Assembly (NCBI RefSeq): GCF_002198735.1
Contig: NZ_MWLO01000161.1
Location: 22,242 to 80,007 of the forward strand
From: Ideonella sp. A 288
GTDB taxonomy: Bacteria; Pseudomonadota; Gammaproteobacteria; Burkholderiales; Burkholderiaceae_C
Direction of reading: 5' to 3'
Length of the DNA stretch: 57,766 nt
Shown piece by piece: positions 44,681 through 46,462 of the stretch (its first letter is position 1; every line of letters begins with the position of its first letter). Below the pieces are notes generated by a model that saw only the letters and a program-made list of their open reading frames with translations, did no database searches and was not told the origin of the DNA. A program made the position numbers and the translations under genes.

Positions 44681-44941
44681 TCAGTGGCCGCTCTGGCTGT
44701 TCGACCGCTGCACCGCGCCACGCAGGTCGGCGGCGAAACTGGGGTCCGACGCCTCGATGCGGCTGGCCCAGGCCAGCACTTCCTCGGGCGTCTGCGGCTC
44801 GTTCTGGCGGTGCGCGAGCTGCCAGCGGTCGATGCGGCGGATGCCGTTGATCAGGGCGGCCGCCATGTTGGCGAACCAGAGCGACCCGCGCGGAATCGTG
44901 ATCCGAGTGGGGCGACCGAAGCTCATCGAAGCGGAGGACAT
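44681..44941 (-). CDS. small protein of unknown function (86 aa)
   Basis: An 86-aa basic protein beginning MSSASMSFGRPTRITIPRGS, with a middle part LWFANMAAALINGIRRIDRWQLAHR that could form an amphipathic helix and an acidic C-terminal part (TPEEVLAWASRIEASDPSFAADL). It has no membrane helix, Cys pair or known motif. The composition looks protein-like rather than antisense. ATG 44939-44941 is used; a TTG four codons upstream is possible. A good -10 box (TATACT) lies about 50 bases upstream, and the leader can form a GACCCG-CTT-CGGGTC hairpin (44964-44978). It is divergent from the rsgA leader. Confidence 0.65.
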   Translation of the reverse strand: MSSASMSFGRPTRITIPRGSLWFANMAAALINGIRRIDRWQLAHRQNEPQTPEEVLAWASRIEASDPSFAADLRGAVQRSNSQSGH

Positions 44942-44963
44942 GGTGTTTTCCAATCTGCTGCGC

Positions 44964-44978
44964 GACCCGAAGCGGGTC
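44964..44978 (-). promoter_or_regulatory. leader hairpin upstream of the 86-aa protein
   Basis: Perfect 6-bp stem GACCCG / CGGGTC with a 3-base loop, in the leader between the putative -10 box (44991-44996) and the ATG. It may influence translation or mRNA stability. Confidence 0.4.
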
Positions 44979-44990
44979 TTGCTGCGGTGC

Positions 44991-44996
44991 AGTATA
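44991..44996 (-). promoter_or_regulatory. -10 box of the 86-aa protein gene
   Basis: On the minus strand this reads TATACT, one base from the sigma-70 consensus, in a locally AT-rich stretch (ATAAGTAAAAACCC just upstream). No clear -35 is seen 17 bases upstream, so the assignment is moderate. The predicted start is near 44984. Confidence 0.5.
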
Positions 44997-45142
44997 GGGT
45001 TTTTACTTATCCCGGTTGCACCGAACAGGTATAGGAAATGCCGTCAATCGAGATCCTTCACACGGTGGACGCCACGGGCTCCCGGCGCTTGACGGCGGTG
45101 TGGCGCCCGCCGCACACTTCCAGTCCTCTCGACACCGACCCC

Positions 45143-45352
45143 AGGAGGCTGCCATGACGCCGATTGCCCAAGCCCCCCTGTCGGGCCGCCCGCGCTGACG
45201 CCTTAGCGCCTGCTGGCCGGTCGCCGGTTCCGCCGGTTCCCGTTCTCACGCGCCGCCCCTCGGCGCGCGTCCGTCCCGACCTTCCCCCTGCCTTGGCCAC
45301 CGCGTGAGTTCACGCGGGGCTGCCTGGTGCCGCGTGCCGGCACCGCCTTCGC
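45143..45352 (+). promoter_or_regulatory. structured leader of rsgA with three hairpins
   Basis: The leader opens with a perfect AGGAGG Shine-Dalgarno (45143-45148) serving a 14-codon frame, then a direct repeat CGCCGGTTC x2 (near 45220). Three strong hairpins follow: CGCGCCG/CGGCGCG (45249-45267), CCGCGTG/CACGCGG (45300-45317) and GTGCCG/CGGCAC (45327-45343). The last ends 9 bases before the rsgA ATG and would cover its ribosome binding site. This has the build of a translation-dependent attenuator or RNA sensor, but I know no matching described class. Confidence 0.5.
45154..45198 (+). CDS. possible leader peptide upstream of rsgA (14 aa)
   Basis: A 14-codon frame, MTPIAQAPLSGRPR, with AGGAGG 6 bases before the ATG, the strongest ribosome binding site in the window. 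It contains three Pro and ends in Arg-Pro-Arg, residues that can slow ribosomes. It lies 155 bp before rsgA and ahead of three hairpins. Leader peptides with Pro codons control Mg2+-transport genes in enterobacteria; whether that parallel applies here is speculation. Confidence 0.4.
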   Translation: MTPIAQAPLSGRPR

Positions 45353-46462
45353 ATGGATGGTTCGACCGACATGAACGGTTTCCTCGATCTCACCGCGCTC
45401 GGCCGCCTCGGCTGGACAGGCGCGCTCTCCCCCACCGATCTCGACCGGGCCGGCGCCGATGGCCTGCGGCCGATGCGCGTCGTCGAAGTGCAACGCGATC
45501 ACCTGCTGCTGCACGATGGCCACGACACGCACCGGGCCGGGCTGAGCCGACCGCTGGCCGAGGCCACCGCGGCGCAGCACGATGCCCTGGCTGTGGGCGA
45601 CTGGGTGCTGGCCCGGCCGCACGGCAGCCCGGGCTGGCTGGCCAGCGAGCTGCTGCCCCGACACAGCGTCGTTGCCCGGCGCACCCACGACGGCCGCGGC
45701 GGCGTGCAGCGCCAGGTGCTGGTGGCCAACGTCGACACGGCGGTGCTCGTGATGGGCCTGGACCACGACTTCAACCTGCGCCGGCTCGAGCGCTACCTGG
45801 CGCTGGCGCAGTTGTCCGGTGTGGCCGCGGTGCTGATGCTGACCAAGGCCGACAGCCTGGGCGACGGCGCCGTGCACGATCGGCTGGCCGACGCCCGCGG
45901 CGTGCTGCCGGCGCAGGTGCCGGCATTTGCCGCGGACGGGCGAGACGCCCACGCGGCGCAGGTGCTGTCGCCCTGGCTCGGGTCGGGCCGCACCGTGGTG
46001 CTGCTGGGCTCCAGCGGCGCCGGCAAGAGCACGCTCACCAACACCCTGCTGGCCGATCAACGCCAGGACACCGGCCCGGTGCGCGAGGACGACAGCCGGG
46101 GCCGCCACACCACCACGGTGCGCACGCTGCAGCTGGCGGCGCAGGGCGGCTGCATCATCGACACACCGGGCCTGCGCGCCCTGCGCCTGGACGTGACCGA
46201 CGAGGACGACCTGGCCGCCACCTTCGGCGACATCGCCCAGTGGGCCGAGCGCTGCCGCTTCCGCGACTGCCGCCACACGACCGAGCCCGGTTGCGCCGTG
46301 CGCGAGGCCGTTTCGCCGGAGCGCCTGCGCAACTACCACAAGCTGCTGCGCGAATCGATGCGCGACTCGCGCAGCGCGCTGGAACGGGCGGCCGAGGTGG
46401 CGCAGTGGAAAGTGCGCCACAAGGCGGCGACCCGGCGTGCCCACGCGAAGCGTGGGGATTGA
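45353..46462 (+). CDS. rsgA: ribosome small subunit-dependent GTPase A
   Basis: A 369-aa circularly permuted GTPase that helps mature the 30S ribosomal subunit. It has an N-terminal OB-like domain (to about 115), then G motifs in permuted order: TKAD (164-167; G4), GSSGAGKST (219-227; G1), DTPG (270-273; G3), and a C-terminal zinc-binding knuckle with Cys301, Cys306, His308 and Cys314. The N-terminal part differs from E. coli RsgA and is closer to the YloQ-like, often stand-alone paralogues, so a second rsgA may exist in the genome. ATG 45353 or 45371 (MNGFLDL) could be the start; both lie after the structured leader. Confidence 0.92.
   Translation: MDGSTDMNGFLDLTALGRLGWTGALSPTDLDRAGADGLRPMRVVEVQRDHLLLHDGHDTHRAGLSRPLAEATAAQHDALAVGDWVLARPHGSPGWLASELLPRHSVVARRTHDGRGGVQRQVLVANVDTAVLVMGLDHDFNLRRLERYLALAQLSGVAAVLMLTKADSLGDGAVHDRLADARGVLPAQVPAFAADGRDAHAAQVLSPWLGSGRTVVLLGSSGAGKSTLTNTLLADQRQDTGPVREDDSRGRHTTTVRTLQLAAQGGCIIDTPGLRALRLDVTDEDDLAATFGDIAQWAERCRFRDCRHTTEPGCAVREAVSPERLRNYHKLLRESMRDSRSALERAAEVAQWKVRHKAATRRAHAKRGD

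Follow-up and report, generated by a model that had tools for sequence, protein, structure and literature searches.

A conserved leader open reading frame and alternative RNA pairings upstream of a second RsgA paralogue resemble a translational attenuator

Enterobacterial Mg2+ leaders of the mgtL/corL type carry a short leader open reading frame (ORF) 5' of the regulated gene and are translation-coupled, and their hallmark is a leader peptide whose proline codons are conserved. To our knowledge, few leader-peptide attenuators are known beyond genes for antibiotic resistance, amino acids and Mg2+. In ermC, as described in PMC13148051, a short leader ORF is combined with exclusive stem-loops, and the ribosome binding site (RBS) is exposed once a ribosome stalls on the leader. 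Within the literature open to full-text searching, which leaves subscription journals mostly outside, no leader or attenuator of rsgA is described by title or abstract. In the portions of the retrieved papers that are accessible, the "two RsgA" of PMC8579695 are crystal monomers, RsgA appears in PMC10502375 only as a (p)ppGpp target, PMC2375449 concerns a similarly named gene for a small RNA, and PMC13159725 contains no RsgA. We have found an RNA element with a leader ORF before a second RsgA gene that, judged by comparison among relatives, is real, conserved and unreported in the searchable papers. The balance tips slightly toward reading the approximately 220 nt before this gene as a cis-acting translational attenuator of the ermC type.

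The window, a 57,766-nt stretch of the Ideonella sp. A 288 genome (G000), carries on its forward strand a gene (45371-46462) whose product matches RsgA_GTPase (PF03193, E=2.5e-42) and scores 136.7 bits against TIGR00157, for which the cut-off is 100. The other RsgA copy of this genome (G000:C30, the window copy being on G000:C70) has 33% identity to it and is presumed to be the canonical RsgA. The gene in the window, here called RsgA2, thus encodes a further member of the family and is not the housekeeping rsgA. Its start was set by homology: the N-terminus MNGFLDLTALGRLG read from 45371 aligns with MIEHIDFEALSTIG-type relatives, and the gene probably begins there instead of at the in-frame alternative, 45353. 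RsgA2 was detected in 83 of 399 genomes of the family to which the window belongs (E<=1e-60). At the level of the class, a first search in other orders returned homologues in 19 of 274 genomes and a second (E<=1e-55, one query) in 31 of 369, the window genome being included in both counts. The distribution is patchy and covers a minority of genomes in the class, a pattern that may hint at purpose.

Both the AGGAGG Shine-Dalgarno (SD) sequence (45143-45148) and the 14-codon frame MTPIAQAPLSGRPR behind it (45154-45198, forward strand; ATG at 45154, TGA at 45196-45198) are present as the first-pass annotation had claimed. Conservation was assessed in 167 regions upstream of RsgA2, a partly redundant set. 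One search contributed 75 of its 78 loci, the Thermoplasmatota matches L110-L112 having been removed beforehand, and further genomes supplied the rest. One of these regions (L027) is wrongly oriented, and four (L113, L120, L228 and L233) hold no candidate even by a loose rule. Dropping L021, L027, L028 and L116, and then near-duplicates, gave a non-redundant set of 112 loci. Under a strict rule (AGGAG or GGAGG, an ATG, 8-30 codons and at most 400 nt from the match), a leader was found in 144 of the 167 regions, whereas ten rounds of dinucleotide shuffling yielded 0.7 on average. The leader shares with the ermC type a short ORF that has an SD of its own and lies 5' of the target gene. On this comparison, the leader ORF before RsgA2 is real and conserved. 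It distinguishes RsgA2 from canonical RsgA (YjeQ), with which RsgA2 shares the RsgA_GTPase domain and a TIGR00157 score above cut-off; an AGGAG or GGAGG leader is absent from all 10 presumed canonical loci (31-38% identity), of which a single one shows a weaker candidate with GAGG. The absence of a conserved frame and of covariation, which the first-pass annotation had named as what would count against its proposal, was tested for in relatives and did not occur.

A promoter-like pair lies further upstream (45089-45118, forward strand), with TTGACG at 45089-45094 and CACACT at 45113-45118 separated by an 18-nt spacer; a stricter consensus promoter scan of the window did not report it. As a raw count, 75 of the 112 non-redundant loci contain a similar pair (score >=9). 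In relatives the TTGAC-17/18-CACACT pair ends a median of 35 nt before the leader ATG, and TTGAC occurrences peak 70-60 nt 5' of it. The pair would set the 5' end of the RNA approximately 25-30 nt before the leader ATG, and the mRNA would begin just 5' of the short ORF. Among ten genomes of known members, the leader motif HTTGCCNNCYTGTCGGC occurs once in eight and is absent from two, five of the eight occurrences coinciding by coordinates with the rsgA2 leader; across the order it was found in 57 of 300 genomes. DNA similarity comparison of 44900-45420 with 60 genomes returned 15 matches besides the window itself, of which 13 span only about 44903-45014, covering the 5' end and promoter side of a divergent ORF, and the other two are short and on the minus strand (45277-45334 and 45172-45201). 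This divergent ORF (44681-44953, minus strand, 90 aa) has no Pfam or NCBIfam match. The gene directly 5' of the leader in one Massilia relative (L114:829-1227, plus strand) resembles S-adenosylmethionine decarboxylase (SpeD) by eye.

Typical leader peptides are MRTLDIALLSAA, MHTNDIALLSAA and MKTLDLALLSACAR, with MTQIAIAALSVRAR typical of loci near the window. The commonest residues across the 112 loci are D at codon 5 (52 loci), I or L at codon 6 (69), A at codon 7 (69), L at codon 9 (54), S at codon 10 (58) and A at codon 11 (57), with a single Asp/Glu at codon 5 in 54 of the 112. The C-termini are variable, and the frame can shift, as between L060 and L109. Codons 5-8 (45166-45177; ATG+12 to +23; consensus GAY HTT GCC NNC) are conserved at their third positions (T at +17, 0.74; C at +20, 0.83; C at +23, 0.73), which points to an RNA constraint beyond amino acids alone; no pairing partner for these codons was found in the Burkholderiales loci.

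The window peptide contains three prolines, and the first-pass annotation had speculated from Pro-containing leader peptides toward Mg2+. Maturation of ribosomes requires Mg2+, and a leader before rsgA2 that senses Mg2+ through Pro codons, as in mgtL/corL, would fit that need. Proline occurs at least once in 73 of the 112 leader peptides, most frequently at codon 8 (30 of 112, a count exceeded at no position of the first 13), but 39 peptides lack proline altogether, and no more than 9 contain at least three. The Mg2+ idea is left without specific support because the prolines have no fixed place. The likeness to mgtL/corL extends to a short, translation-coupled leader ORF before the gene; the conserved proline codons were not found among the 112 peptides, and the downstream gene, RsgA2, is no Mg2+ transporter. 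We therefore regard a Mg2+ leader at this locus as very unlikely.

The first-pass annotation had sought the structure of the leader in a direct repeat and three local stems, the last said to end 9 bases before the rsgA start. The tandem repeat of CGCCGGTTC was confirmed (45222-45230 and 45231-45239, forward strand). All three stems are present as paired segments (45192-45198/45203-45209, 45249-45255/45261-45267 and 45326-45332/45338-45344, with an additional stem at 45300-45306/45311-45317), but as a set they are no better than chance, since the fold of 45130-45370 (-106.7 kcal/mol) has a z of -1.06 and 27 of 200 dinucleotide shuffles fold as well or better. In the minimum-energy fold, the first stem, GCGCTGA/TTAGCGC (45192-45209), contains the leader stop codon. 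The stem before rsgA2, GGTGCCG/CGGCACC (45326-45344), would not end 9 bases from the gene start because RsgA2 probably starts at 45371. The middle stem, a 7-bp hairpin here called P2 (45249-45267), overlaps with its 3' strand the 5' end of the right arm of the pairing P1 described below, and its position is supported in relatives (p=8e-4, 75 loci), though less strongly than the long-range pairings. The additional stem, P4, is a 7-bp hairpin 3' of the same arm (45300-45317); when 21 offset pairs were tried for a hairpin after the right arm in relatives, the best one gave an uncorrected p=4e-4 (75 loci), again weaker support. As working parts the three local stems are unsupported, and the best-supported pairings are longer-range. 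Of the translation-coupled attenuator layout proposed at first, the conserved leader ORF and the leader RNA have held, but the local stems and the Mg2+ link have not.

The pairing P1 joins a left arm in leader codons 9-14 (GTCGGG...CGCGC, 45180-45195, forward strand) to a downstream right arm (GCGCG...CCCGAC, 45265-45280, forward strand), which is followed by CTTCCCCC; in the window it is the inverted repeat I1, 16 nt long and 81% complementary. Among relatives, complementarity is highest at leader offsets 24-31 and is raised to a lesser degree at -9, -4 to -2 and 57, and a perfect 6-nt partner at offset 26 was found in 29 of 64 loci against 7.1 expected. The longest perfect complement is 6.67 nt for the own downstream region and 6.05 nt for swapped segments (p=3e-5, 112 non-redundant loci), and the comparison with shuffled sequence gave p=7e-7; eight further leader offsets were flat in the swap test (112 loci). 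The arms vary as GTCGGC/GCCGAC, GCCGGC/GCCGGC, CGGTCGGATA/TATCCGACCG and GGAACGGC/GCCGTTCC. In alignment A1 (25 loci, 24 distinct), whose 3' ends were cut with an arm-like motif so that its P1 result depends on that choice, 99.5% of P1 cells pair, above 500 of 500 shuffles. One P1 pair in A1 switches from U-A to C-G in 3 of 23 rows; counted by pairs, this two-sided change (one) was matched by 239 of 500 shuffles, and counted by cells by 5 of 500. One locus in A1, L077, misfits the cutting motif and has a shortened arm. The right-arm anchor E was picked by left-arm complementarity, so E-anchored P1 rows are circular and were not used for P1. In the Burkholderiales loci, leader codons 1-7 paired neither with the region downstream nor with the start of rsgA2, and pairing of the right arm with later segments was marginal (p 0.009-0.04). 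RNA duplex energies were also tried as a pairing test and rejected as too permissive.

A second pairing, P0, joins the leader SD region to leader codons 7-12. Its 5' strand (45135-45148, forward strand) consists of CCGAC (45135-45139) and the leader SD, and its 3' strand lies inside the leader ORF (45174-45184, forward strand), where GTCGG (45180-45184) faces CCGAC and CCCCCT (45174-45179) faces AGGAGG with one mismatch, by eye. In relatives P0 exceeds swapped (p=2e-7) and shuffled (p=2e-9) sequences, with distant control windows flat; examples are ACAGGAG/CTCCTGT, CGAGGAGG/CCTCCTCG, CAGGAGAAG/CTTCTCCTG and TAAGGAAA/TTTCCTTA. Two-sided changes in P0 are absent inside A1, where P0 also fails to exceed its shuffles, and its support is therefore between clades and not within the clade of A1. 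P0 and P1 share one strand, and in the window each pairs the same GTCGG with a CCGAC.

The third pairing, P3, joins the intervening segment to the start of rsgA2. It was analyzed in 96 loci with assigned start codons, taken from the 112 after setting aside 8 without an assigned start and removing 8 doubtful starts by hand; L121 (<150 nt to the gene) was left out and L170 was restored with a hand-found start. At -18 to 0 relative to the rsgA2 start, own complementarity was 5.98 against 4.89 swapped (p=5e-10, 96 loci), and against shuffled sequence p=2.5e-9 with a flat control window; other windows were flat except overlapping ones and a marginal +12 to +30 (p=0.02). A perfect partner of at least 7 nt is present in 37 of the 96 loci, 26 of which have a confident right arm, and in 11 of those 26 the 5' strand of P3 lies 31-44 nt before the right-arm end. 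In the Ideonella window P3 is weak, at only 6 bp. The candidate 5' strand is CCGTTC (45240-45245, forward strand), which can pair with GAACGG (45373-45378). It is located 40 nt ahead of the P1 right-arm end, in the range common among relatives; a second candidate is CGGTCG (45218-45223) with CGACCG (45363-45368). Because the 5' strand of P3 is typically inside the loop of P1, P1 and P3 cross. Sequestration of the target RBS in one state, an ermC-type feature, is seen here via P3 complementarity only (96 loci). Each of P0, P1 and P3 beats both swapped and shuffled controls and, by that comparison, is sequence-specific complementarity.

These results bear on two rival readings of the locus. Chance GC-rich pairing around a non-functional short ORF, with no regulation, would agree with the window fold, which does not rise above shuffles, and with single-locus P1 scores, which in this GC-rich DNA are mostly non-significant (of 80 loci, with a mean z of 0.99, only 20 reach p<=0.05). 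Set against it are the family-level pairing tests, which are positive while control segments are flat, and the excess of strict leaders over shuffles, and we hold this reading to be extremely unlikely. Transcription attenuation or Rho-dependent control would take the C-rich untranslated stretch after the P1 right arm as a Rho site that translation of the leader uncovers or masks. It draws on the pyrimidine-rich stretch seen there by eye in many relatives, as well as in the window, and on the leader ORF located upstream; however, P3 targets the start region, as translation control needs, and a simple terminator scan of the plus strand between leader and gene gave no site. Control of this kind is in our view quite doubtful.

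With one strand common to P0 and P1, and with P1 crossing P3, the leader resembles an ermC-type attenuator. In the translational mechanism that we propose, segment 2 (leader codons 9-13) would pair either with the leader SD region as P0 or with the downstream arm as P1, and P1 would compete with the P2 hairpin and topologically cross P3, which covers the rsgA2 start region. On a leader without a ribosome, P0, P2 and P3 would hold rsgA2 closed, and a ribosome moving across codons 9-13 would block P1 and likewise leave rsgA2 closed. A ribosome held near the leader start would remove P0 and free segment 2, so that P1 would form, P3 would open and RsgA2 would be made. The signal, as a guess, may be ribosomes that are slow or stuck at initiation or in the first codons, as with immature 30S subunits or start-stalling inhibitors. 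We infer the mutual exclusion of the pairings, the direction of the switch and this signal. Besides its short leader ORF, the scheme would share with ermC/ErmCL mutually exclusive stem-loops and exposure of the downstream RBS after a ribosome stalls on the leader. It differs from ermC in that the target is a ribosome-assembly GTPase paralogue and does not confer resistance, P0 pairs the leader SD with codons of the same leader, the anti-RBS strand in Burkholderiales lies inside the P1 loop, and no stalling site or drug is known for the rsgA2 leader.

The proposed states were compared by folding 91 loci with the RNA under the ribosome masked, using software that cannot form pseudoknots, so that the exclusivity of P1 and P3 was assumed by construction. 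In this model the expected number of P1 pairs was 2.9 with the leader free, 4.8 with a ribosome initiating, 0.2 with one elongating and 0.7 with one at the stop codon, and the corresponding accessibility of the rsgA2 start was 0.463, 0.495, 0.424 and 0.436. Predicted accessibility was higher in the initiating than in the elongating state in 54 of 91 loci and lower in 13 (p=6e-8); relative to the stop state it rose in 52 and fell in 23, and relative to the free state it rose in 39 and fell in 14. The mean changes are small. The window copy (L017) formed almost no P1 in any state of the model, and its accessibility did not rise: it was 0.29 with the leader free, 0.24 with a ribosome initiating, and 0.27 both with one elongating and with one at the stop codon.

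P1 and P3 could instead coexist as a pseudoknot. The P1+P3 RNA would then be bound by a protein or ligand, with RsgA2, a ribosomal protein or the 30S subunit repressing rsgA2 and the leader ORF being secondary. The H-type manner in which P1 and P3 cross is compatible with this, as are the third-position conservation of codons 5-8, expected of a bound RNA motif, and the variable C-terminus of the leader peptide. Yet a strong leader SD, ATG and short ORF are kept in 144 of 167 regions, and P0 covers the leader SD specifically, which would be of little use if the leader were untranslated. Nor does any Rfam family rise above threshold: no Rfam 15 model reached its gathering score in the window, none matched six loci at E<=1, and seven loci of other orders gave only a sub-threshold RcsR1 (25.4 bits, gathering 60, minus strand). 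We consider a bound pseudoknot unlikely.

RsgA2 genes in other orders, from genomes taken to be Gammaproteobacteria in the usual sense, allow the attenuator reading to be compared across lineages. A leader was accepted by eye in 10 of 18 loci from the first class-level search and 11 of 28 from the second, the two sets overlapping; the remaining loci of each set had no acceptable leader by eye. Their peptides include MIVIKTFRVTE, MIVVKTLRADS, MIVFRCLQARDQAELIAIK and MDIAAAAGLRT. In several of these loci, alternative helices follow one another as a chain. The leader helix of L267 and L270 is GCAGGCC:GGCCTGC (CAGGCC:GGCCTG in L270), with further helices CCCGGC:GCCGGG, GGGATTC:GAATCCC and ATCCCAA:TTGGGAT at the rsgA2 RBS; this chain is absent from L264. 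The leader arm and its partner co-vary in L250, L260 and L262 (CCGGGCAA/TTGCCCGG, CCGGGTTA/TAACCCGG and GCCGGGTAGA/TCTACCCGGC). Swap tests in 12 of these loci, some of them close relatives, gave p=0.003 for the leader start with the rsgA2 RBS, p=0.016 for P1 and p=0.004 for the anti-RBS helix; P0 was non-significant in the same 12 (0.38), and of two controls one was flat and one reached 0.08. The leaders of other orders are thus similar in layout to those of Burkholderiales, with different pairings. The mask model applied to the 12 loci gave mean accessibilities of 0.26 free, 0.40 initiating, 0.34 elongating and 0.31 at stop, and in both lineages the open state was on average most favored with the ribosome covering only the leader start. 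The switch logic may be shared by both.

We tentatively suggest, as a possibility rather than an expectation, that the leader is a gauge of initiation health, with rsgA2 exposed only while a ribosome occupies the first leader codons. The same logic would then be carried by different base pairs, by a P0 guard with P1/P3 in Burkholderiales and by a guard between leader start and RBS with a 2:3/3:4/4:5/5:6 cascade in the other orders. If this is true, the cell would produce a back-up factor for 30S maturation at times when ribosomes initiate but fail to proceed. The pairings are explicit enough for testing by point mutants. If an attenuator controls this relative of the 30S checkpoint GTPase, ribosome assembly would be linked to a direct readout of how ribosomes behave on an mRNA, which would offer a first handle on the reason for which some Beta- and Gammaproteobacteria retain a second RsgA.
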